Shown one piece after another: positions 160-18,828 of a stretch of 64,000 nt of DNA. The DNA is taken from contig NZ_CP016477.1 in NCBI RefSeq assembly GCF_001693275.1, forward strand, positions 1,302,001 to 1,366,000, in the 5' to 3' direction. Source of the DNA: Picosynechococcus sp. PCC 7117. GTDB taxonomy: Bacteria; Cyanobacteriota; Cyanobacteriia; Cyanobacteriales; MRBY01. The notes beneath the pieces are model-generated. The model was given only the letters and a program-made list of their open reading frames with translations. It ran no database searches and was not told where the DNA came from. Within the stretch, counting starts at the first letter, position 1, and each line of letters opens with the position of its first letter. Made by a program: the position numbers and the translations under genes.

Positions 160-540
160 ATGGCAGGCTTCAGTGATTTAGTACAAAAGGCCTTTTACCT
201 TGGGGTCGGGGCCGCTTCCCTCGCTGCCGAAAAAGCAGGGGCAACGATCCATGATCTGCGCGAACAGGCCCAGGTCATCGCCGATGAGATGGTGCAAAAA
301 GGGGAGATGAACGCCGAGGAGGCCAAAAAATTTGTCAATGAAATGGTCAAGCAGGCCCAACAGCGAGTGCCCCAAAGCCCAGAAACGACAACAAGCTCCA
401 ACAGCGAGACCAAAGAGCCGCGCCGCATTGAAATCCTTGACGATGACGAACCTGAAAACACCGACGCCATGGACGAAGCTGAACGGCTCCGGCGGGAAGT
501 AGAATCTCTCCAAGCAGAGCTGAATAATTTGAAACGGTAA
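160..540 (+). CDS. phasin-like coiled-coil protein
   Basis: 126 residues, no signal peptide and no membrane segment. The first 70 residues form an amphipathic helical region rich in Ala, Glu and Lys of the kind in the small phasin family (PHA granule-associated / COG3937-like). Residues 70-100 are Pro/Ser/Thr/Glu-rich and probably disordered, and the last 25 residues (from DEAERLRREV) form a short coiled coil. By family such proteins are soluble and coat granules or regulate PHA synthesis; no PHA synthase gene is in the window, so the true partner is unknown. It converges on the next gene with 22 bp between the stops. The reading frame is certain; the functional label is only a family resemblance. 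Confidence 0.7.
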   Translation: MAGFSDLVQKAFYLGVGAASLAAEKAGATIHDLREQAQVIADEMVQKGEMNAEEAKKFVNEMVKQAQQRVPQSPETTTSSNSETKEPRRIEILDDDEPENTDAMDEAERLRREVESLQAELNNLKR

Positions 541-562
541 CTCACAGGAGGCAGTTCTGGGG

Positions 563-940
563 TCATGGGAACGGCACGGGGGCCAAAGATGGGATGACTT
601 TAAGGGTTTCGAGGCGGGCGATCGCCAATTCTAATCGCTGTTTTTCTAGCAGAAGGTGATCGCGTTCCTGGGGACGATCGGCAATGACCGGATTAATTTT
701 CACGGTGTCTCCCTCTTTTACCTTGAGGTCATCGAGTTCAGTGAATTTAACTTTGAACGTATAGTGGCTGGGGCTATTGCTGACTTCTTCTACGAGGTCA
801 ATTTCCCTCTCCTCCTGTTGGGCGATGGAACCGAGGGTCAACAAAAAGGCACCGAAACTCATAAAAATCACTATCACTGAGAACAGATAGCGGACAGGTT
901 CACTGGGCTTGAGTTTTTGTGCGGCAAAATTCAGCATCAT
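563..940 (-). CDS. one-TM protein with lipoyl/HlyD-like segment
   Basis: 125 residues. Residues about 18-41 are a strong membrane segment after a short basic N-terminus. Next comes an acidic stretch, then a stretch containing LKVKEGDTVKINPVIADRP (about residues 73-91). That resembles one half of the barrel-sandwich (biotinyl/lipoyl-like) hammerhead of HlyD-type membrane-fusion proteins, including the gly-asp turn and the ADR motif that normally leads into a coiled coil. A short helix (ERDHLLLEKQRLELAIARLE) follows where the HlyD hairpin would start, and then the protein ends. It looks like an abbreviated adaptor rather than a full fusion protein. No transporter or TolC gene is adjacent. Function unknown; the ORF is well supported by codon use and topology. 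Confidence 0.65.
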   Translation of the reverse strand: MMLNFAAQKLKPSEPVRYLFSVIVIFMSFGAFLLTLGSIAQQEEREIDLVEEVSNSPSHYTFKVKFTELDDLKVKEGDTVKINPVIADRPQERDHLLLEKQRLELAIARLETLKVIPSLAPVPFP

Positions 941-1065
941 TTTCTGGTGTAAGACAAAAAATACCCTCTCCGGCTTTCAGCCACCTCCCCCAAGGGAGGA
1001 TAATTGGTCGCAGAGTGTATCAAAAAAGATGCAATAGTCGATGTGGGTAATCTGGAGGCAATAAA

Positions 1066-1374
1066 ATGACGAACAATCAGCATATTGGTTCTTCCTTGGA
1101 TGACCTGTTAGAGGAAGATGGCATTTTGGCTGAAGTCAATGCTTTAGCTCTCAAGCGGGTATTGGCTTGGCAACTGAGCCAGGAAATGGAACGACAAGGT
1201 TTGAGTCGTTCTCAGATGGCAGCTTCGATGAAGACGAGCCGTTCTTCCCTGCAAAGATTACTAGATCCTGAAAATACCTCGGTGACGTTGAAAACCATGG
1301 AAAAAGCAGCGGCGATCGTTGGGAAGCGACTACGGATTGAGTTAGATGATATTCAGGAGCCTGCAAATAGTTGA
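1066..1374 (+). CDS. XRE-family HTH regulator (HigA-like antitoxin type)
   Basis: 102 residues. An N-terminal segment SSLDDLLEEDG is followed by a helix-turn-helix of the Cro/C1 type at about residues 45-75 (GLSRSQMAASMKTSRSSLQR), ending in GKRLRIEL. This small family is common as the antitoxin or regulator member of HigBA-like modules, where the toxin usually lies directly upstream. Here the 125 bp upstream hold no toxin gene. There is only a short open stretch (1004-1069) in a frame that ends in an ATGA overlap with this start, and it does not resemble a toxin end. A good ribosome site (TGGAGG) lies 7 bp before the ATG. So it is either a solitary regulator or an antitoxin whose toxin is lost. 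The IS1 element begins 66 bp downstream. Confidence 0.8.
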   Translation: MTNNQHIGSSLDDLLEEDGILAEVNALALKRVLAWQLSQEMERQGLSRSQMAASMKTSRSSLQRLLDPENTSVTLKTMEKAAAIVGKRLRIELDDIQEPANS

Positions 1375-1431
1375 TCTGTTACTTGAAGATCAACAAAAAA
1401 TAAGCAGAAAGTTTAGAATTTGATTAATATA

Positions 1432-1439
1432 TTTTTCCC
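1432..1439. repeat. target site duplication, left copy
   Basis: TTTTTCCC immediately left of the IS1 element; an identical copy lies immediately right of it at 2220-2227. Eight or nine base duplications are typical of IS1. Confidence 0.9.
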
Positions 1440-1463
1440 GGTAGTACTAAAGGGGTAATGAGG
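1440..1463 (+). repeat. IS1 inverted repeat (insB side)
   Basis: Outer 24 bp of the element; matches the inverted copy at 2196-2219 at 21 of 24 positions, including a continuous GTACTAAA core. Confidence 0.85.
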
Positions 1464-1938
1464 AATTGTAGTGATGGATGAAATTCCACAATAGTCCAAT
1501 GTGATTAAATACACACTTGGAGAAGGCTAGACTGCGTCTCACAAACCGTGACATCCTTTGCCTCACAGTACAATTAAAGCGCTCAATATAACTGGTTTTA
1601 CCACTCTGTTTGCTAACCACCCGATGACGCTTTGAAGGGAATACGCCACGGTAGGCTTCCCACTCATCCGTGTAGAAGACTCCACATTGCCGATATACCC
1701 CAGGCAATGACGCCCACAGTGCTTTTGCACTCTCTCGACCACGGCAACCAACGTGCAGACCAATAATTTCCCGGGTTTGAACGTCAAGGGCCAGCCAGAC
1801 CCACTGTTTATTGCCTTTGTGGTCAACAAAAGACCAGAGTTCGTCACACTGCACCTTTAAAGACCCCTTTTTTTGGGGACAACCTTGGCCCTTCTTGGTA
1901 CTTGTGCTGCTTTCATATTGACGTAATTTTGCAGCCAT
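1447..1938 (-). CDS. insB: IS1 transposase InsB' (DDE catalytic part)
   Basis: Open frame for the catalytic half of an IS1 transposase. It is expressed as an InsAB' fusion by -1 slippage on the A7 run at 1868-1874, so codons upstream of about 1870 in this frame are probably not translated independently. Residues after the slip read KKGSLKVQCDELW, with the first catalytic Asp in DELW. The second Asp is in YTDEWEAY and the Glu in SYIERFN, giving a complete DDE triad. The frame is uninterrupted and the C-terminus (LLWNFIHHYN) has the family form. The gene stops 7 bp inside the left end of the element, as is usual for compact IS1 copies. Confidence 0.93.
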   Translation of the reverse strand: MAAKLRQYESSTSTKKGQGCPQKKGSLKVQCDELWSFVDHKGNKQWVWLALDVQTREIIGLHVGCRGRESAKALWASLPGVYRQCGVFYTDEWEAYRGVFPSKRHRVVSKQSGKTSYIERFNCTVRQRMSRFVRRSLAFSKCVFNHIGLLWNFIHHYNSSLPL

Positions 1939-2156
1939 TGTTCAGAAACTTGAACAGCTCTGGCGATGCCGGCCATCGAAATACGTTCGAAAAGCAGACG
2001 GTCAATCAGAGCGCGGGTTTCAGCATCAATGAGTTTATTGGTGGGATGTTCCACGAATTGACGACCGCATTGCTTGCAGAGAAAGCGCTGTTTACCGTTG
2101 TGGATGTGCCCATTTTTGACTGTATGTTGGGATTGACAGCTGGGACATTGAGGCAT
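1857..2156 (-). CDS. insA: IS1 InsA, zinc-finger/HTH DNA-binding protein
   Basis: 99 residues. The N-terminal zinc finger has the paired cysteines CPSC and CKQC separated by a short basic hairpin, followed by an HTH region (GIARAVQVSEQWLQNYV). InsA alone binds the IS ends and represses; fused to InsB' it forms the transposase. The gene ends a few codons after the A7 run (1868-1874 on the plus strand as T7), exactly where IS1 elements place their frameshift. The product is full length with no disruption. Confidence 0.93.
   Translation of the reverse strand: MPQCPSCQSQHTVKNGHIHNGKQRFLCKQCGRQFVEHPTNKLIDAETRALIDRLLFERISMAGIARAVQVSEQWLQNYVNMKAAQVPRRAKVVPKKRGL
1868..1874 (-). promoter_or_regulatory. 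A7 slippery site for InsAB' frameshifting
   Basis: Seven A residues on the minus strand (CCCC-A7-GGGG). The zero frame reads Lys-Lys-Arg-Gly-Leu-stop; a -1 shift reads Lys-Lys-Gly-Ser-Leu and continues into InsB'. Programmed frameshifting or transcript slippage at such runs is the known IS1 mechanism. Confidence 0.85.
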
Positions 2157-2195
2157 GGGTCGGAGTCAATGACTTCCGTTCTACCTTAACAAAAC

Positions 2196-2219
2196 CGTCA
2201 TTACCCTTTTAGTACCACC
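2196..2219 (-). repeat. IS1 inverted repeat (insA side)
   Basis: Partner of the repeat at 1440-1463; lies directly upstream of insA and is expected to contain its promoter. Confidence 0.85.
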
Positions 2220-2227
2220 TTTTTCCC
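2220..2227. repeat. target site duplication, right copy
   Basis: TTTTTCCC, identical to 1432-1439. Confidence 0.9.
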
Positions 2228-2290
2228 TAATTGTTTATTTTAAGCCAGTAGTAATTTATAAAAATATTTAATACTTAAGTCAATAAGTGT

Positions 2291-3334
2291 ATGAATAAAA
2301 ATAATAGCCTTTTAGGAAGTTTTTATGTATTTGTTTTTGTATTAATTATATTATCTATTCCGATTTTTATGATTACGTTTGCCGATTCTAAAATACGCTC
2401 AGAGATAAGGGATTGGCTGAAAGTAATAGGGAGCTGCCTCATTCCATTAGCCCTCTTCTATCTAAACAAAGAATTTGATAAAAGAACAAAAATGGAAGAA
2501 GAGTTAAAATCTAATGAGTCCAGGGAAAGAACAGAAAGTAAAAATGTGCAAAATTTCATGAAAAATATCAATGATATCATTGATGAAATTAGGAAAATCG
2601 AACCGACCAGCAGCGAAGAAGAAAAAGATTCTTTAAAATTTGCTCGTGCTCTTACCGTTGAGATTTTAAGCACTGTAACTAGCTCAGCGAGAAGAAATTC
2701 AATAATCTATTTTTTAAGATCTCTTGGAATAACTACGGAAAAATATAAGCTTTTTAATCATCTTCTACTTGAAAACTGTGATTTAAAGGAAATCATCATA
2801 GTAATGGACAACTTTTCTTATTCTTTATTTAGTAATAGTAATTTATCTGGGAGCAAAATCCAATGTGTGGAATTTTATCAAGCAGATTTTCAAAATGTGG
2901 ATTTTAGCTCTTCCAAAATTTTTAATTCTCGCTTTAATAATATTGATGGGGAAGAGCTTATTTTCAGAAATGTAAAAGGAGTTTCTAATGATTTTAGAGG
3001 GGCCAATTTGAAAAACGCTGACTTCTCAAAGGCATGTTTAATGAATTCTAATTTTTCTCCAGGTCTAGCTGGAGAGACACATCTAAGAATAGATACGGAT
3101 CTAACAAATGCTAAATTTATCGAAGCAGAATTAACTGCTTCAGTTTTAGATTGTACTATCTTACATAATACAAATTTTAGCGGTGCTCAATTGGAAAATG
3201 CTTCTTTACGCAATGTACAAAACATTGAGACAGCAATTTTTAATAATGCCCAACTAAAAGATACACGTCTTTCTAAAGCTCTTTCTCCAGAACAAATAAA
3301 ACAATGTAAGGTTTATGAACCGATTATAGAATAG
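2291..3334 (+). CDS. membrane-anchored pentapeptide-repeat protein
   Basis: 347 residues. Two hydrophobic segments (about residues 8-29 and 43-58) are joined by a short charged loop and followed by a Lys/Glu-rich, probably coiled-coil stretch (60-105). A helical linker then leads to pentapeptide repeats of the A(N/D)LxN/F type from about residue 175 to 320 (for example GANLKNADFS, TNAKFIEAEL, NFSGAQLENASL). The repeats should fold as a right-handed beta-helix facing the cytoplasm or the opposite face. Base composition is strikingly AT-rich and the gene lacks HIP1 sites, unlike almost every neighbour, which suggests recent acquisition. Its 5' side is the IS1 insertion. No partner gene is adjacent, and no function can be assigned beyond a membrane-tethered repeat scaffold. 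Confidence 0.85.
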   Translation: MNKNNSLLGSFYVFVFVLIILSIPIFMITFADSKIRSEIRDWLKVIGSCLIPLALFYLNKEFDKRTKMEEELKSNESRERTESKNVQNFMKNINDIIDEIRKIEPTSSEEEKDSLKFARALTVEILSTVTSSARRNSIIYFLRSLGITTEKYKLFNHLLLENCDLKEIIIVMDNFSYSLFSNSNLSGSKIQCVEFYQADFQNVDFSSSKIFNSRFNNIDGEELIFRNVKGVSNDFRGANLKNADFSKACLMNSNFSPGLAGETHLRIDTDLTNAKFIEAELTASVLDCTILHNTNFSGAQLENASLRNVQNIETAIFNNAQLKDTRLSKALSPEQIKQCKVYEPIIE

Positions 3335-3702
3335 CTCAAAGCAGAATTTAAGAAGGTGGGGACGAGTATAAAAACTTTAAAATCAAGCTGCCCGATCGCC
3401 CACTGGTCTTGAAGAATTGAAATCGCCTGGTTCAGGTCAGCATAGACTAGAGTGACCCTGGTGCCATAGACCTGAACTTCTGGGGGTAAGGAACTGGGCA
3501 GTTCATCAGGAAAATCAATGGTGATACTGCCGGAAACCAGGACAAGACTGTTGGAATAACGCTGGGCGATCGCCTCCAAACTTTCCCCTAGCGGTTCATC
3601 ATTAAAACCCTGGGTAAATGTTTGATTGACTAGTTTACGATAAACGTAGATGTTTTGGAAATGGATAACTGGAAAGAGTAATGTCTGATGCTTCTTTATC
3701 AC
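3313..3702 (-). CDS. hypothetical protein, uncertain start
   Basis: 129 residues from the only in-frame ATG, at 3702. Residues about 40-115 look like a genuine folded domain with good codon use and a HIP1 site read as Ile-Ala (LEAIAQRYSN, then ITIDFPDELPSSLPPEVQVY, then a hydrophobic strand LDFKVFILVPTF). The N-terminal 20 or so residues overlap, on the opposite strand, the start of the next gene (ATG at 3681). The stop overlaps the 3' end of the pentapeptide gene. So either the two genes overlap at their 5' ends or this is the remnant of a longer gene whose front was lost. I recognise no family. Confidence 0.45.
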   Translation of the reverse strand: MIKKHQTLLFPVIHFQNIYVYRKLVNQTFTQGFNDEPLGESLEAIAQRYSNSLVLVSGSITIDFPDELPSSLPPEVQVYGTRVTLVYADLNQAISILQDQWAIGQLDFKVFILVPTFLNSALSYSIIGS

Positions 3703-4334
3703 CCCAAACCCCAGAAGTGTATGCCGGTTACTACGGCAAATTTACGATCACCGCTGCCGATCGCCAGGAGGTTTTTCTTTATCGTCTGGGGTTGGCGATC
3801 GCCGCTGGTGCCTTTAGCTTTGGTACTGCTTTAGCTATTGCTTTAGGCGATCAGGGTTGGACGCAGGGATTAATTTCTGGACTATTCGTCGCCTTTTGTG
3901 GTGGTCTGGGTCTCAGTTTGGCCAAGATTCATATTTATCTCATTCCTCTACACCGACTGCTCCAGGGCTTTTGGCTTGTGGGCTGTGGTGCGGCGATCGC
4001 CTTCGGTCTCATTTTTCCAGAACCGCTATTCGTCACCGTTTTAGAAAAACCCCACACCCTCTGGGGCATTGGCTTTCTTTTTGCCGCCTTGACGGGAATT
4101 TTCTTTAAAGAGGGCTTTTGTTTTCGACGTTTGGAAACAATGCTTTTGACGCCCCTGGTGCCCCTGCTGCTTTTGGGTCACTTGACTCAGCTTTTACCGT
4201 TAGCAGTTGCCCAAATTGGGTTCAGTCTGTGGAGCGTTTTATTCATCATTTTTGCGGCTCGGAAATTTACACAAAAGCCCGCCGATGATATTGGTGATAA
4301 AAGTGTATTTGACCATCTCAAACAAACCCAATAA
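3681..4334 (+). CDS. DUF2301 integral membrane protein
   Basis: 217 residues, about six hydrophobic segments. The N-terminal cytoplasmic stretch has YAGYYGKFTITAADRQEVF. Later come the conserved GIGFLFAALTGIFFKEGFC and the Arg-Leu-Glu-Thr segment that are hallmarks of the DUF2301 family, which I recognise from cyanobacteria and plant plastids. Function is not established. It is followed after 3 bp by the Sua5/TsaC gene on the same strand, so the two are probably cotranscribed. The ATG choice leaves the conserved YYGKF segment near residue 15. Confidence 0.8.
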   Translation: MSDASLSPQTPEVYAGYYGKFTITAADRQEVFLYRLGLAIAAGAFSFGTALAIALGDQGWTQGLISGLFVAFCGGLGLSLAKIHIYLIPLHRLLQGFWLVGCGAAIAFGLIFPEPLFVTVLEKPHTLWGIGFLFAALTGIFFKEGFCFRRLETMLLTPLVPLLLLGHLTQLLPLAVAQIGFSLWSVLFIIFAARKFTQKPADDIGDKSVFDHLKQTQ

Positions 4335-11894: not shown

Positions 11895-11961
11895 TATGGA
11901 ATAATCAGCAACCAAGGGGCGTTTGTCTCCGTATTTTAAAGGATTCTGTCTATTTGCTTTG

Positions 11962-13119
11962 ATGTCGTCGCTCCAAATCATTGATCAAAAAAATCCAACC
12001 TTCTTTGCTGAAGCGTTTCAAAAAGCGATCGCCCGTCACGAATCCGTGTTGCTGGTCAATTCTACTTGGCAAACTTCAGAACGGACACAAATTAAATCAC
12101 TCTTAGGGCAAGATCAAAGGCCAGAACTTCTAACAAAAAAATCCCACATTTTAATTCCCACTGGCGGCACATCAGGACAGCTAAAGTTAGCAATTCATAC
12201 CCCTGAAACCTTGTCTGCTTCGGCCCAGGCTTTCCAACGTTTCTTCGCTTTAGAACGGGTAAATTGTTTTTGTATTTTGCCCCTCTACCATGTCAGCGGC
12301 TTGATGCAATGGTGGCGATCGCATTTGAGTGGGGGGGACTTTAAATTCGGCGACTATCAAGCTCTAAAACGCGGCATTTTGCCGGATTGGGATGTCAGTA
12401 ATTTTTGTCTATCCCTAGTACCAACTCAATTACAAGTATTACTTCAAATTTGCCCCCAATGGTTGGCCCAGTTCCGCTTAATATTACTCGGTGGTGCTCC
12501 GCCTTGGCGATCGCTCCTTGAGCAAGCCCGGCAATTGCAGCTCCGGATTGCTCTGACCTATGGCATGACGGAAACCGCTTCCCAGGTGGTAGCCCTAAAA
12601 CCAGCAGACTTTTTAGCTGGCAAAGATTGTGCGGGCCAAGTTTTGCCCCATGCCAATTTATCTTTATCAAAAACGGGTTTAATTTCCATTGCGGCCCAAT
12701 CGTTATTTCTCGGTTATTATCCCAAGTTTGATCATCCTAAAATTCTAAAAACCGATGATGTAGGTCACTTCGATCAAGCAGGCTATTTACATTTATTGGG
12801 ACGCCAAAGCCAGAAGATTATTAGTGGCGGTGAAAATATTTATCCAGCAGAAATTGAAGCGGCAATTCTAGGAACGAAATTCGTTAAAGATGCGGCAGTT
12901 TTGGGTTTGCCAGATCCTTACTGGGGAGAAGTTGTCATTGCTGTGCTGAGTTTGAAAAATCCAAGTGATTTAGACAGGGTAAAAATGGCGATCGCCAAGC
13001 AATTAAGCCCTTATAAACAGCCAAAACATTGGTTGCTGGTTGAACAATTGCCGCGCAATGCCCAGGGAAAGTTAAACCGAATCAAACTCCGCCAAATGAT
13101 TGAAAATCGCTATCAGTAA
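11962..13119 (+). CDS. menE: 2-succinylbenzoate--CoA ligase (phylloquinone synthesis)
   Basis: 385 residues from the ATG at 11962; an in-frame ATG at 11923 would add 13 poorly coding residues. It is an AMP-forming acyl-CoA synthetase with the P-loop-like IPTGGTSGQLKLA near residue 75, LTYGMTETASQV near 200 and GGENIYPAEIE near 285, ending with the catalytic lysine region NAQGKLNRIKL. The enzyme activates o-succinylbenzoate with CoA on the way to phylloquinone, the secondary acceptor of photosystem I. It is short compared with typical 450-500 residue ligases, as is usual for cyanobacterial MenE. A later pathway enzyme, DHNA-CoA thioesterase, is at 55630-56070. Confidence 0.88.
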   Translation: MSSLQIIDQKNPTFFAEAFQKAIARHESVLLVNSTWQTSERTQIKSLLGQDQRPELLTKKSHILIPTGGTSGQLKLAIHTPETLSASAQAFQRFFALERVNCFCILPLYHVSGLMQWWRSHLSGGDFKFGDYQALKRGILPDWDVSNFCLSLVPTQLQVLLQICPQWLAQFRLILLGGAPPWRSLLEQARQLQLRIALTYGMTETASQVVALKPADFLAGKDCAGQVLPHANLSLSKTGLISIAAQSLFLGYYPKFDHPKILKTDDVGHFDQAGYLHLLGRQSQKIISGGENIYPAEIEAAILGTKFVKDAAVLGLPDPYWGEVVIAVLSLKNPSDLDRVKMAIAKQLSPYKQPKHWLLVEQLPRNAQGKLNRIKLRQMIENRYQ

Positions 13120-13183
13120 AGGTTGAAACGACATTTTTGATGTAGATTTATGAAGCAAGCTTAATTTTGCCAATACATCTGCC

Positions 13184-13918
13184 ATGACTGCCCTTAGTCC
13201 TACCCACATCAACCCCAGCTACGCCCAACGTCATCCGCTGCGGGTCGTCGCCTTCGGGGATAGTTTGGTGTATGGGTTTGGCGATCCAGTCCGGGGTGGT
13301 TGGGTCGAGCAATTACGGCTCCACTGGATGGGCAATCCCCAAGGCCATGTGCTCTATAACCTCGGTGTGCGCGGTGATACGGTGAAATTGGTGGGCGATC
13401 GCCTTGGAGCCGAGTACCAACAACGGGGTGAATTGCGTAATAAACAGCCGGATTTAATTTTATTGTCCGTCGGGGTCAATGATTCGCCGCGCCTGGGGCG
13501 TCCCGATGGGAAAAGTTTTACGGATTTTGACCTTTTCCAAAGCCAGTTAGACAATTTATTAGCACAGGCGCAACAATTTTGTCCGGTAATTTTTATCGGT
13601 CAAGTGCCCGTTAATGAAGCTAAAATGCCCTTTCTCGACTGCCTATATTACAGTCACAGCGAACAATATTGTTACAAAGAATTGACGAAAAAGCTGTGCG
13701 GCGATCGCCAAATTCCGTACCTAGATATTTTTGATTTGTGGCTCAGTCGTGGCACCCACTGGGTCAATGAGCACCTCAGCGCCGATGGTCTCCACCCCAA
13801 CAGCGGAGGCTATGCGATGCTCTTTCAAGATGTGATCAACTGGCAGGCGATCGCCCAACTCGATTTTGGTAACACTTGCTCAATTTCATCGAAAACACCA
13901 GTATCCCTTGGGGTTTAA
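13184..13918 (+). CDS. SGNH/GDSL-family hydrolase
   Basis: 244 residues with the four SGNH blocks in order: GDSLVYG (nucleophile Ser, about residue 28), Gly in LGVRGDT, Asn in SVGVND and DGLHPN carrying the Asp/His pair. No signal peptide, so cytoplasmic. The fold covers esterases, lipases and acylhydrolases and the substrate cannot be read from sequence. It lies between menE (64 bp upstream) and the alpha-mannosidase (33 bp downstream), all on the plus strand. A joint role in glycan deacylation and trimming is conceivable but unproven. Confidence 0.85.
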   Translation: MTALSPTHINPSYAQRHPLRVVAFGDSLVYGFGDPVRGGWVEQLRLHWMGNPQGHVLYNLGVRGDTVKLVGDRLGAEYQQRGELRNKQPDLILLSVGVNDSPRLGRPDGKSFTDFDLFQSQLDNLLAQAQQFCPVIFIGQVPVNEAKMPFLDCLYYSHSEQYCYKELTKKLCGDRQIPYLDIFDLWLSRGTHWVNEHLSADGLHPNSGGYAMLFQDVINWQAIAQLDFGNTCSISSKTPVSLGV

Positions 13919-13951
13919 GATAAAAGTCAGTTCTCTGGCTGAAAATCTCCC

Positions 13952-16900
13952 ATGGCATCCCCTGTTATCCAAGCGACCATCGAGCGCCTAAAAAGTTTTG
14001 TTGCATTGCCGACCCAAACGACATGGCAATTTTACCAAACGGAGACCGCTGTTCCGAAAACATTTCGGCCAGATTTAGCAACCTTTCAACCCACTCAGCT
14101 CGCAGCAATTCAACCAAATAATAATGGTTATCTCGTTTTTGAAAAGGGGTTAAAGCTCGCTTGGTTTTACCAAAAAATTACGCTCCCCGAAAGTATTAAT
14201 AATTATAATATTTCCGGATTCAATGCCCGCTTAAATCTTACTTGGTGGGCCGAAATTGCCGCAATTTTTGTCAACGGTAAATTAGTTTGTGAAGGTGATT
14301 TATTTGATTCTTCAACGCGGTTACTATTAACGGATCAGGCCCAAGCAAATCAAACTTTTGAGGTGGCGATCGCCCTCGTTAGTCCGGGCCATGACATTGG
14401 CGCATTAATGAAGTCGAGTTTGATCTTTGAATCCCCGACCTTAGAGATTTCAGAAGCGGGGAGTTTTGCCACAGAATTACAAATTTTGACCGACTATTTA
14501 GCGCGTTATGATCCGGAAAAAATAACTTTTGTAGAAGCGCACTTAAATCATATCCCTTGGGCACAAGTCACAGATACACAAACATTTAATCAAACGTTAG
14601 CAGAAATTCGGACAGAACTAATACCAGTTGCCAGTTGCCTTAAAACACGAAAATTTCATGTTTTGGGTCACGCCCACTTAGATATGGCTTGGCTCTGGAC
14701 AACTTCTGAAACCTGGGAAGTAGGACAACGCACATTTCAATCGGTTTTAAATCTCCAACGGGAATTTCCTGAATTGATTTTTGGCCATAGCACCCCAGCC
14801 CTCTATGATTGGATTGAAAAAAATTGTCCTGATCTTTGGGAAGAAATTCAACAAGCAGTTAATAATAATTGTTGGGAATTATTAGGCGGAACGTGGGTCG
14901 AGCCCGATGTAAATTTGGTTTCTGGAGAATCTATTATCCGCCAATTTCTTTATGGCCAACAATACTTTTTTGAAAAATTTGGCCGACGTTCAACCATTGC
15001 TTGGTTACCGGATTCCTTTGGGTTTCCCAATCAATTTCCTCAACTGGCCCAGCATTGCGATATTAAAGCGTTTGGCACTGGAAAACTCCACTGGAATGAT
15101 ACGGCTCCTTTTCCCCATGGTTTATTTTGGTGGCGATCGCCCGATGGCACGGAACTATTAACCTTCATGACGCCTCCCAATGTCACCGGAATTATGGATA
15201 CCAATCCGCTGACGATGGCCACTTATGCCCAAAAATGGGAAGCACAAACCCATTTAAAAGATATTTTTTGGTTGCCGGGCGTGGGTGATCATGGCGGTGG
15301 CCCCACAAAGGATATGTTACAGGTGGCCCGCAAGTGGCAACAGTCGCCATTTTTTCCTAAATTAGAATTTTCCACCGCAGAAAGTTACCTCAATCATGTT
15401 AAAGAAACCCCCAATTTACCAGTTTGGCAGGATGAACTTTATTTAGAATTGCATCGTGGTTACTATAGCGTGCACCGGGATCAAAAAATTTTTAATAATC
15501 ACTGTGAAACTCTACTACGCCAGGTCGAAATTTGGTCGGCGATCGCCAACAATTTACCTCACACAGATCCCTTTAGATCAGAAATATCTCACAACCAATT
15601 AAAAGACCTCTGGAAAAAAGTTTTATTTAACCAATTTCACGATATTTTGCCTGGTACTTCGATTCCTGAAGTCTTTACAGAAGCCAACCAACAATGGCAG
15701 GAAGTGATTAATACTGGGGAAGCGATGTTGTCCCAAAGTTTTAAGGCGATCGCCTCGCAAATCACCTATGATTGCCCCTTAGAAAAAGCGGCTAAACCAC
15801 TACTTTTATTTAATGACTTCAACTGGGAGCGTACAGAGGTTGTTAGTTTAAGTATTCCAGATTTAGTGACGGTTTACGACTGGAACGGCCACAAAGTCGA
15901 GCCACAAATTATTGTTGAAGATTTACAGGCAGATCACAACGACAAAAAATATTTATCTTTTCTCGCAACAGTGCCATCCGTCGGTTATTCCCTCTACTGG
16001 TTGTGTCCCGATTCGCAAGCACCAACCCAAAGAGAAAACGATTTACAGAATGAACCAGACTTTATTTTAGAGAATGATTTTCTTCGTATTGAAATCGACT
16101 CAGAAACGGGAAATATAGCTCAATGTTTTGACAAAATAAATGAAAAAAATATCTTTTTTGATGCGGGCAATCAACTGCAAGTCTTTGAAGATAAAGGCCA
16201 ATACTGGGACGCCTGGGATATTGCCCCTGATTATGAAAGCAAACCTCTCCATTCCCCTGAAGTAGTTTCAATTCGCTGGCGAGAAAAAAATGCTGTGCGT
16301 TCAATTATCCGCGTAAAAAAGCAATTAAATCAATCCACTTTTAGCCAGGACTATCAACTCGATTGCCAGGGAAAAATGCTTAAAATTCATAGCACTGTGG
16401 ATTGGCAAGAAGAACAAGTGGTTTTAAAAGTTGCGTTCCCCTTTGCCATTAACGGGGCTACTTGCACCTATGAAACTCCCTGTGGTGCCATTGAACGAAA
16501 ACCAGAAATTGATCCCGCAAAATGGGAAGTGCCAGCCTTACGCTGGGCTGATTTTCATAATGAGAAGTATGGCGTCAGTATTCTCACCAAAAATCACCAT
16601 GGCTACGATGCAAAATCCAGTCAATTGCGCCTAACGTTACTCAAAAGTCCCCTTTGGCCTGACCCTCAAGCCGATCGAGGTAGGCATTATTTAGCCTACG
16701 CCCTATATCCCCATAGTGGCCCATGGCAAAGGGCGAGAACCGTTAATTTAGCACGGAATTTCAATTCACCTTTACGGGCAGTGGTTCCTGACATTATTGC
16801 CAACCAGAACTGTTTACAACCCCACCATTCTTTTTTGACATTAGGCTCAGATAATTTGATTTTATTGGCATTGAAACAGGCGGAATCAAATCAAGATTAT

Positions 16901-17089
16901 ATTCTCCGTTTCTATGAAGCTTGTGGCCAAACAACCAAATTAAATTATAGTAATACTTTGGGGTTAACCATCACAGAGCAAGTAAATGGTTTAGAAGATA
17001 CGATTTCACAAACAATTGACATCCCGATTCAACCTTGGAGAGTCCAAAGTTATCGCTTAGAAAAACATCAAAACGCGAAAGACACCTAG
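13952..17089 (+). CDS. GH38 alpha-mannosidase
   Basis: 1045 residues, full length for the bacterial and class II alpha-mannosidases. After an N-terminal beta region, the catalytic domain starts at about residue 230 with HVLGHAHLDMAWLW, whose His and Asp bind zinc. WLPDSFGFP holds the catalytic nucleophile Asp near residue 354. A further zinc-site His lies in GVGDHGGGPT near 450. The middle helical domain (about 500-590; NQFHDILPGTSIPEV) and the long beta C-terminal domain are present. There is no signal peptide, so the enzyme is probably cytosolic and acts on intracellular or imported alpha-mannosides. Codon use is noticeably more AT-rich than in neighbours, although HIP1 sites are present. 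A transferred but ameliorated gene is plausible. Confidence 0.93.
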   Translation: MASPVIQATIERLKSFVALPTQTTWQFYQTETAVPKTFRPDLATFQPTQLAAIQPNNNGYLVFEKGLKLAWFYQKITLPESINNYNISGFNARLNLTWWAEIAAIFVNGKLVCEGDLFDSSTRLLLTDQAQANQTFEVAIALVSPGHDIGALMKSSLIFESPTLEISEAGSFATELQILTDYLARYDPEKITFVEAHLNHIPWAQVTDTQTFNQTLAEIRTELIPVASCLKTRKFHVLGHAHLDMAWLWTTSETWEVGQRTFQSVLNLQREFPELIFGHSTPALYDWIEKNCPDLWEEIQQAVNNNCWELLGGTWVEPDVNLVSGESIIRQFLYGQQYFFEKFGRRSTIAWLPDSFGFPNQFPQLAQHCDIKAFGTGKLHWNDTAPFPHGLFWWRSPDGTELLTFMTPPNVTGIMDTNPLTMATYAQKWEAQTHLKDIFWLPGVGDHGGGPTKDMLQVARKWQQSPFFPKLEFSTAESYLNHVKETPNLPVWQDELYLELHRGYYSVHRDQKIFNNHCETLLRQVEIWSAIANNLPHTDPFRSEISHNQLKDLWKKVLFNQFHDILPGTSIPEVFTEANQQWQEVINTGEAMLSQSFKAIASQITYDCPLEKAAKPLLLFNDFNWERTEVVSLSIPDLVTVYDWNGHKVEPQIIVEDLQADHNDKKYLSFLATVPSVGYSLYWLCPDSQAPTQRENDLQNEPDFILENDFLRIEIDSETGNIAQCFDKINEKNIFFDAGNQLQVFEDKGQYWDAWDIAPDYESKPLHSPEVVSIRWREKNAVRSIIRVKKQLNQSTFSQDYQLDCQGKMLKIHSTVDWQEEQVVLKVAFPFAINGATCTYETPCGAIERKPEIDPAKWEVPALRWADFHNEKYGVSILTKNHHGYDAKSSQLRLTLLKSPLWPDPQADRGRHYLAYALYPHSGPWQRARTVNLARNFNSPLRAVVPDIIANQNCLQPHHSFLTLGSDNLILLALKQAESNQDYILRFYEACGQTTKLNYSNTLGLTITEQVNGLEDTISQTIDIPIQPWRVQSYRLEKHQNAKDT

Positions 17090-17090
17090 T

Positions 17091-17663
17091 TCAAAGCTCG
17101 ATTGTTTCATACATTTTGCTATTTTCTTCGACGCCACGGTATTGCCAGGCGACAGATTCGGGATCTTTGGCCTTCGACCACTGGGCAAAATGTTGGCCCC
17201 CTTTTTGATTGTGGCGACTCAGGGTCGAGGGATTGGAGCGGAGGCGGCGGGCTAGATCAGCTTGTTTCAGGACAAGAGGACTTTTTTTTTCGGGGCTGGG
17301 TTGGATTTCGGTGGTTTGGGCCGGGCTGTTTAATTCGGACTTGAGCAGGGCGATCGCCTGTTGAATTTCCGTTTGTACCCATTCCTGGGTTGGTACATTA
17401 CTGGGGAGGGTTTTAGAGACAATGGCCTGGAGTTCATCTTTGTCTAAAACAGGGGTAGGGGTGTTGCCATTGAGGTCAGCACTAAAAAAGATCCGCAGCA
17501 CTTCGATAATGCCTGTGCCCAGGGCGGGCTTCTCTTTGCCGCTTTTTTTGCCTTGGCGGGACAGACCATTTTCCAAACAAAAAGCGGTCAGACGTGCTTC
17601 AATTTCTTCGGGGAGATAGGCGGTGACGGCTTTATTTTTGGTACCCATGTTGTCATAGTCCAT
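17091..17663 (-). CDS. putative DNA-binding protein (RHH-like N-terminus, HTH C-terminus)
   Basis: 190 residues from the ATG at 17663, chosen because GAGGAAAG lies 5-6 bp before it; the frame continues 9 codons upstream. Residues about 8-30 (KAVTAYLPEEIEARLTAFCL) resemble a ribbon-helix-helix strand and first helix. A Pro/Gln-rich middle follows. A C-terminal segment near 130-165 (LKQADLARRLRSNPSTLSRH) reads as a helix-turn-helix that would contact DNA, followed by WSKAKDPESVAWQYR. Similar proteins occur singly in cyanobacterial chromosomes and plasmids. The targets are unknown. It converges on the mannosidase with 1 bp between the stops. Confidence 0.7.
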   Translation of the reverse strand: MDYDNMGTKNKAVTAYLPEEIEARLTAFCLENGLSRQGKKSGKEKPALGTGIIEVLRIFFSADLNGNTPTPVLDKDELQAIVSKTLPSNVPTQEWVQTEIQQAIALLKSELNSPAQTTEIQPSPEKKSPLVLKQADLARRLRSNPSTLSRHNQKGGQHFAQWSKAKDPESVAWQYRGVEENSKMYETIEL

Positions 17664-17764
17664 TACTCTTTCCTCGATTTTACAGAACAAGTAATGGATT
17701 TAGTCAATTACTATACTTTTTCGAGGTGTAAACGGTTCATGATGAAGGGCTTGGCTAAAGAACC

Positions 17765-18757
17765 ATGGCAGAAATGAAATGTCTCAAGGATTTTGGGGAA
17801 GCAGAGATTCTCCAGCGGTTGCAGCGGTTTTGTCCGGCAGAAATTATCGGCGATGATGGAGCGGTTTTAGGGTTTCCCCCTGGTCAGAATTTGGTCGTGA
17901 CGACGGATGTGCTGGTGGATGGGGTGCACTTTGGCGATCGCACGATGCCTCCAGAGAAAGTGGGCTGGCGCGCAGTGGCGGCGAATTTATCGGATCTAGC
18001 GGCAATGGGGGCCACGCCAATCGGCATTACTGTGGGTTTATCTCTGCCGCCGGAAACACTAATCTTTTGGCTTGATCAGCTCTATCAAGGACTGGCCGCC
18101 TGTTTGGGTCGTTATGGTACGCCTCTGGTCGGTGGAGATTTGACGCGATCGCCCATCAAAACCATTGGCATTACGGCCTTTGGGGTCGTGTCGCCGCACC
18201 GCGCAATTCAACGTAGTACCGCAAAAGTGGGCGATGTGATTCTTGTCACGGGTTACCACGGGGATTCCCGTGCGGGTCTGGAATTGCTGCTCCATAATGA
18301 TTCTCGCGCCCAAACTTTATCGACAGGCGATCGCCAAGCTTTGATCCGCGCTCACCAAACGCCCAAACCCCGCCTGGATGTGCTGGCGTATTTAAACCCC
18401 TCAGATTCGCCCCCAGCGGGGATGGATAGTAGCGATGGCTTAGCCGATGCCGTGCTGCAAATTTGTCAATGCAGTGGTGTCGGTGCCGTAGTGGAAGCAG
18501 AGAAAATTCCCCTGTCCCCGGCCCTCCGGCGTTATCAAAATCCAGAAACGGCTTTGCGGTGGGCTTTGTATGGTGGCGAGGATTTTGAACTGGTGCTTTG
18601 TCTCCCCCCGACGGCGGCGGAACAGCTCCTGGCCAAGCTTTCAGGTCAAGGGGCGATTATCGGCCAGATTACCGCCGAGCAAACGGTGGCGATCGCCAAT
18701 GGTGCAGGCCAAACCATGCCATTAAGCCAAACCCAAACCTTTCAGCACTTTGCCTAA
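17765..18757 (+). CDS. thiL: thiamine-monophosphate kinase
   Basis: 330 residues. It phosphorylates thiamine monophosphate to thiamine diphosphate in the last step of cofactor synthesis. Motifs: IGDDGAVLG, TTDVLVDGVHF, a VGGDLTRS segment, GYHGDSRAGLELLL and MDSSDGLADAV, all in the order of the AIR synthase/ThiL fold, with YGGEDFELVL near the C-terminus. An in-frame start at 17765 fits the family length. No riboswitch-like element is apparent in the 100-bp upstream spacer. Confidence 0.95.
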   Translation: MAEMKCLKDFGEAEILQRLQRFCPAEIIGDDGAVLGFPPGQNLVVTTDVLVDGVHFGDRTMPPEKVGWRAVAANLSDLAAMGATPIGITVGLSLPPETLIFWLDQLYQGLAACLGRYGTPLVGGDLTRSPIKTIGITAFGVVSPHRAIQRSTAKVGDVILVTGYHGDSRAGLELLLHNDSRAQTLSTGDRQALIRAHQTPKPRLDVLAYLNPSDSPPAGMDSSDGLADAVLQICQCSGVGAVVEAEKIPLSPALRRYQNPETALRWALYGGEDFELVLCLPPTAAEQLLAKLSGQGAIIGQITAEQTVAIANGAGQTMPLSQTQTFQHFA

Positions 18758-18828
18758 CGTTTTCCTTGCCGAGATCCCCAGCCGAATGTGACAAAATAAG
18801 GCTGCAATCTTCTCCATGTCGGCCCTCC

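Follow-up and report, generated by a model that had tools for sequence, protein, structure and literature searches.

Gene content of the locus

The DNA analysed here, a stretch of 64,000 nucleotides from a genome of 3.43 Mb (hereafter, the window), carries an intact gene for a pentapeptide-repeat protein that lies, together with an antitoxin gene, an insertion sequence and parts of two other genes, between two chromosomal genes. The features of the region, in window coordinates, are the following:

160–540, + strand: chromosomal gene to the left of the insertion
537–3639: whole inserted segment (3,103 bp), a pAQ5-family plasmid fragment with a cargo slot
563–940, − strand: HlyD-like plasmid gene, N-terminal part, cut by the left junction (125-aa frame)
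945–996: short intergenic repeat, also found elsewhere on plasmids
1044–1045: scar of the loss of a RelE/ParE toxin gene, from alignment with pAQ5 and the PCC 73109 plasmid
1066–1374, + strand: intact Xre-type antitoxin gene without a toxin (102 aa)
1432–1439: left copy of the IS1 target duplication, TTTTTCCC (8 bp)
1440–2219, − strand: IS1-family element (780 bp), with an InsA-like frame at 1857–2156 and the transposase at 1447–1938
2220–2227: right copy of the IS1 target duplication, TTTTTCCC (8 bp)
2291–3334, + strand: membrane-anchored pentapeptide-repeat protein gene, intact, with an ATG start (347 aa, G+C 30.7%)
3335–3639, − strand: YdjM-type metal-dependent hydrolase gene, C-terminal part, cut by the right junction
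3681–4334, + strand: conserved chromosomal gene (DUF2301) to the right of the insertion

Base composition sets the pentapeptide gene apart from the rest of the window. Its G+C content of 30.7%, falling to 23.6% at third positions, compares with a window mean of 49.0%, and the lowest value that a window scan gave for any 1,044-bp stretch clear of the gene was 39.0%; an initial annotation, made from the sequence, had rightly described the gene as AT-rich. It had also placed the gene in a patch free of HIP1 sites. The gap is real, with sites at 618 and 3566 and zero between them, and is the longest among the 115 gaps in the window, but it is not significant: when 116 sites were placed at random in 64 kb, in 20,000 trials, a gap at least as long appeared in 40% of the placements (P about 0.40), so that the absence of HIP1 adds little and was dropped as a sign of foreign origin. 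The case for such an origin is carried by base composition and synteny, and little by HIP1.

The segment is absent from the chromosomes of related strains

The segment from 537 to 3639 is missing from all five congeners examined. In each of them the flanking genes are adjacent, the left-hand gene ending within about 45 bases of the DUF2301 gene, and the latter is present in six of six genomes of the genus, that of the window included. The insertion junction was read to the exact base against the nearest relative (G002) only, in whose chromosome TTTGAAACG is followed immediately by ATAAACGTAG; the window has 3,103 bp between these two sequences. The left-hand gene now takes its stop codon, TAA, from the insert, so that its protein keeps its length. 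A second scan of contigs for the chromosomes of closer strains yielded two loci, with protein identities of 66% and 54%. The initial annotation had named the presence of the gene at this locus in most relatives as the result that would speak against its proposal of a foreign patch; the absence of the segment from the five congeners speaks for the proposal. That patch does exist, although with limits (537–3639) that are wider than the 1375–3335 first proposed for it.

Probable origin from a plasmid of the pAQ5 family

Both ends of the segment are plasmid genes, in agreement with the suggestion that the pentapeptide gene could be the cargo of a mobile patch. At the left end, positions 537–960 show 88% DNA identity to a 42-kb plasmid-like contig of the same genome (contig C5) and 83–88% to plasmids of strains PCC 7002, 73109 and 8807. 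They include the N-terminal part of the HlyD-like gene, whose full size on pAQ5 and on the PCC 7003 plasmid is 313–314 aa; the HlyD label is weak (26.5 bits vs a cut-off of 208.65 for NCBIfam HlyD, 24.7 vs 129 for NCBIfam DevB, and zero matches in Pfam), and on pAQ5 the gene is followed by one of the TolC family (TolC/OEP). At the right end, positions 3369–3623 show 90% DNA identity to contig C5, where they correspond to the end of a YdjM-type hydrolase gene whose intact copy matches PF04307. The last 24 bases of the insert (3616–3639) match the hydrolase gene further upstream, which indicates that a short piece was lost near 3616–3623.

The HlyD-like and hydrolase genes occur in the same order and orientation, with a slot between them, on plasmids of the Picosynechococcus strains PCC 7002 (pAQ5, NC_010479), PCC 73109 (NZ_CP014002), PCC 8807 (NZ_CP016488) and PCC 7003 (NZ_CP016475), which we refer to as the pAQ5 family. 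In addition, pAQ5 shares the Xre antitoxin with the insert, and the PCC 73109 plasmid shares the scar of toxin loss. Unlike these plasmids, the insert is a mere fragment, is chromosomal and carries a different AT-rich cargo. Relative to G002, no target DNA is missing at the junctions, and 0–3 bp are shared at the right end; an apparent 7-bp target duplication, taken from the overlap of BLAST matches, was overturned when the plasmid bases at both ends of the insert were compared, and this short shared junction replaces it.

We consider it probable (about 0.75) that a captured fragment of a pAQ5-family plasmid carries the pentapeptide gene as its cargo, and that the gene encodes a member of a membrane pentapeptide family with a putative docking role. 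A piece of such a plasmid, from inside the HlyD-like gene to inside the YdjM-type hydrolase gene, occupies the chromosome between positions 536 and 3640; the linear fragment would have entered by end-joining rather than by transposition. Its slot contains an Xre antitoxin that remained after toxin loss, a copy of IS1 and the AT-rich membrane pentapeptide gene. Taken jointly, the observations made on the sequences, that is, a plasmid fragment in the chromosome, variable slot contents and the architecture of the protein family, appear close to certain. As an event the capture is ordinary but well resolved, and the captured fragment carries one representative of a membrane pentapeptide family that is uncharacterised. 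It offers a clean case of plasmid cargo turned chromosomal, in a cyanobacterial genus that includes laboratory strains, and the sequences resolve the donor plasmid family, the empty site and the two junctions to single bases.

As a separate observation, the short intergenic repeat at 945–996 (ccctctccggctttcagccacctc...) recurs on these plasmids, and partial copies of it are found at several chromosomal sites of the genus.

The plasmid slot holds a variety of genes

The contents of the slot between the hydrolase and the HlyD-like gene vary from plasmid to plasmid. On pAQ5, the slot holds a TPR gene, a gene of 239 aa and a RelE/Xre pair; the PCC 73109 plasmid carries the TPR and 239-aa genes with a frameshifted antitoxin that has no toxin. 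Only one gene, of 89 aa, is found on the PCC 7003 plasmid, and the slot of the PCC 8807 plasmid is reduced to about 220 bp with zero annotated genes. In contig C5 the slot contains IS-like frames, an Avs2-like NTPase, a DUF6375 protein and a radical SAM protein, and in the window it comprises the Xre antitoxin, the IS1 copy and the pentapeptide gene. Several of these genes are likewise AT-rich, with G+C contents of 31.4% for the pAQ5 TPR gene, 36.5% for the 239-aa gene and 34.8% for the DUF6375 gene; those for the Avs2-like, radical SAM, Xre, 89-aa and RelE proteins are not (43.0–46.7%). HIP1 sites were found in two of the compared slot genes, one in each, and zero in the rest. Among the plasmids searched, we found the same pentapeptide gene in no other slot, so the gene could also have entered after the capture. 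In all, the variable slot of the pAQ5-type plasmids is worth cataloguing.

The C5 slot spans positions 11911–18801 of the locus extracted from this contig (L045), with the Avs2-like NTPase at 13179–17441. This protein scores 377 bits in PADLOC over its first 952 residues and 292 in NCBIfam, where the cut-off is 1000, and is thus not filed as Avs2. The radical SAM protein encoded nearby has some similarity to viperin. The pAQ5 slot also contains a diverged IS1-like remnant (L057, 2861–3032), 70% identical to one end of the IS in the window.

An intact antitoxin gene without its toxin

The solitary antitoxin-type regulator that had been noted on the 5' side of the pentapeptide gene (1066–1374) is indeed the antitoxin of a RelE/Xre pair, and its toxin has been lost. 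The product is identical to the pAQ5 antitoxin in 97 of 102 residues (95%), but, unlike the RelE/ParE (PF05973)-Xre module, the window copy lacks the adjacent toxin gene, which has been deleted; the pAQ5 toxin matches PF05973. The sole relative of this toxin that we found in the genome is an open frame of 73 aa, with 48% identity across 59 residues. On the PCC 73109 plasmid, the frameshifted copy of the antitoxin gene (L058, about 3090–3370), likewise devoid of a toxin, is absent from the gene table.

An intact antitoxin so close to that of pAQ5 might shield the cell when plasmids of this type enter with their RelE toxin, a role of the kind proposed for chromosomal or orphan antitoxins elsewhere (PMC7354431), and the pentapeptide gene would then be a passenger. 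With pAQ5 as the outgroup, the changes assigned to the window copy number 10 synonymous and 4 non-synonymous, where a non-synonymous share of 77% would be expected (P 1.4e-4, a small count that ignores transition bias). They would fit such a role, as would the frameshift in the sister copy of PCC 73109, and they suggest that the orphan antitoxin may have stayed under constraint. However, the frameshifted copy too has fewer non-synonymous changes than expected (11 of 24, with 13 synonymous; P 8e-4), so that the constraint may be old, and the breakpoint at 1044/1045 coincides with that of the PCC 73109 plasmid, a common scar which indicates that the toxin was most likely lost on the plasmid, before the capture. 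Protection against addiction is thus an unlikely account of the locus.

A scattered family of membrane pentapeptide proteins

The assignment of a pentapeptide domain to the 347-aa protein holds, with 65.5 bits for Pfam PF00805 (cut-off 20.2) and with PF13599 and PF13576 also above their cut-offs; the repeats extend from about residue 175 onward. The two N-terminal membrane helices predicted with it fare unequally: the first is strong (hydropathy of 2.87 from residue 13), but the second is weak (1.23 over 19 residues, or 1.79 over the 17 residues 42–58). At the threshold used, hydropathy peaks number two in 14, one in another 14 and none in 3 of 31 homologues. A single-sequence AlphaFold model was poor, with a mean pLDDT of 43.6 and no resolved beta-helix, so the C-terminal fold is taken from Pfam.

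In a single-sequence search, relatives of the N-terminal part appeared in two genomes besides its own among 148 genomes of the order, and two Nostoc plasmids carry relatives at 26–27% identity. A family profile made from five N-terminal parts, that of the window protein included, has hits with E up to 1e-5 in 124 of the 291 class genomes searched, again with its own genome in the count; many of the weaker matches cover just the helical motif and may represent a sister family. Searches for close relatives confirmed none in the genome contigs or the viral contigs, and found none in phages.

Fifteen proteins, hand-chosen among those of the 31 homologue loci and the window itself, align in a common order of membrane anchor, second segment, coiled linker, the motif RARTLSILRRL..ERK.SVI.FL and pentapeptides, and KTLWDWL precedes the second segment in most of them. 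We define from this an unnamed cyanobacterial family with a membrane anchor, a coil and pentapeptides, of which the window protein is a divergent member: its identity within the family alignment is 18–27%, and the W.GIG.D loop that separates the two membrane segments is missing from it. Judged by its residues, the linker of the family is charged and coiled, and the positive residues that follow the second segment point to a cytoplasmic location of the repeats. The family is scattered and has no role in the literature searched.

Like the window protein, HglK of Nostoc PCC 7120 has N-terminal membrane segments followed by pentapeptide repeats, as described in a review (PMC8145042), which gives it four predicted membrane segments, 36 repeats and 727 residues; compared by architecture, the window protein differs in its one or two segments, its coiled linker and its 347 residues. 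The same review describes the biochemical functions of cyanobacterial pentapeptide proteins as almost completely unknown (PMC8145042).

From this architecture, we tentatively propose, at rather less than even odds, that both ends of the protein lie in the cytoplasm, that the N-terminal helices anchor it, and that the helical motif and the beta-helix offer a docking surface for another protein. A docking surface on a membrane anchor would make it a single-gene scaffold or sensor that is tethered to the membrane and has no operon partner of its own. Of the readings that fit the arrangement of its parts, a membrane-tethered docking protein is the least committal.

Neighbourhoods of the homologues and the question of defence

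The neighbour survey covered 31 homologue loci with 452 open frames, a count that takes in the 31 homologues themselves; some genomes contribute two loci, and a few loci are short at contig ends. Clustering of the homologues and a list of their neighbours, the check advised in the initial annotation, revealed no conserved operon partner, since no neighbour family occurs in more than 3 of the 31 loci. Among the recurrent ones are tyrosine integrases, with one cluster in three loci and one in two (four of the five proteins identified by domain search and the fifth by annotation), other pentapeptide proteins (3 of 31 loci) and the YdjM-type hydrolase family (2 of 31, each protein 43% identical to that of C5). 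Such neighbours are in keeping with a gene that belongs to mobile elements and has no fixed partner. In the two loci with the hydrolase, which come from two other cyanobacteria, the membrane pentapeptide gene lies 3.7 kb (L107, 11192–12235) and 0.5 kb (L114, 5284–6303) from it; in the latter, the hydrolase flanks the pentapeptide gene on the side opposite to that in the window slot.

The patch had also been proposed as cargo for defence, and the protein might act at the membrane as the effector of an anti-phage system, for instance one of the Hailong type, in a slot that serves as a defence hot spot. In Hailong, the effector HalA adjoins its nucleotidyltransferase partner HalB. The window protein does give a weak match to HalA, but at 17.5 bits it falls far below the cut-off of 250 and covers residues 147–225, in the repeats only, and the family has no widely shared neighbour in the 31 loci. 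In the Pfam scan of the main frames of the insert, no nucleotidyltransferase appears. Hailong is treated in general terms elsewhere (PMC12657230). The protein has no match in PADLOC at E up to 0.1. Around the homologues, 95 neighbour genes (up to two per side, of at least 100 aa) matched 50 PADLOC models, and 93 control genes matched 113, so that there is no excess of defence genes by this crude measure; the comparison is weak because matches are counted per model rather than per gene and the control, 20 preset regions from nine of the same genomes, by chance includes BREX-type genes. Two of nine hand-picked neighbours had a PADLOC match. Phage_integrase matches 3 of the 95 neighbours and is not among the 25 families listed for the control.

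In favour of the idea, this slot is occupied on the plasmid of the strain itself by the Avs2-like NTPase and the radical SAM protein with some similarity to viperin, a Nostoc homologue on a plasmid has TIR and SEFIR genes less than 9 kb away, and pentapeptide repeats are listed among the domains fused to Orc/CDC6 in proposed counter-invader systems (PMC10853773). Direct support for a defence role is nevertheless nil, and the Avs2-like NTPase in the same slot is a hint; a defence effector therefore seems quite improbable, and the claim of defence cargo is not upheld. We also think it improbable that the slot is a true hot spot of conflict genes, from which the capture would have given the host two functional parts, an antitoxin against the incoming pAQ5-type toxin and a single-gene membrane pentapeptide effector; in the literature searched, no effector of this sort is described as defensive. 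Our literature searches found no title on this locus or slot. The Nostoc homologue mentioned above belongs to plasmid p057_F of Nostoc sp. C057 (L052, 3082–13062), where an integrase gene is also found.

Comparison with DNA mimics and with an ancestral origin

HetL, Qnr and MfpA share pentapeptide repeats with the window protein by sequence, but the latter has an extra membrane anchor and linker and remains below the cut-offs of the three families (54.8 vs 260 for HetL, 29.1 vs 240 for Qnr and 20.1 vs 360 for MfpA). Its beta-helix might still imitate B-DNA in the manner of MfpA or Qnr and bind gyrase or another DNA-binding protein at the membrane, and its repeats, its acidic C-terminal part (net charge −6, pI 5.1) and weak sequence matches to Qnr models and QnrB1 chains are compatible with this. 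Those matches reach 18–30 bits, against cut-offs of 240–500 for Qnr-type models, and the length of the repeat region varies widely within the family. According to the review cited above, MfpA acts as a head-to-head dimer formed through C-terminal helices (PMC8145042); the window protein has a membrane anchor instead of dimer helices of this type. DNA mimicry is thus very unlikely.

Although absence alone cannot separate gain from loss, the view that the segment 537–3639 is original to the chromosome and was lost by the relatives is next to impossible, because both of its ends are truncated plasmid genes in plasmid order and the flanking genes are adjacent in the five congeners examined.

The IS1 element and its copies

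The IS noted on the 5' side of the pentapeptide gene (1440–2219) belongs to the IS1 family, as indicated by 69.8 bits vs 24.1 for PF03400 and by the 8-bp duplication TTTTTCCC. Its ends and this duplication lie within the insert, so IS1 was not the vehicle of the patch and was ruled out as such. Among the matches listed, with at most 40 candidates scored, the genome contains at least 13 further near-identical copies, and each of the three that we inspected has its own duplication; the copy number reflects a recent burst. The near-identical copies, at least 14, are distributed between two contigs, with eight in C1 and six in C6.
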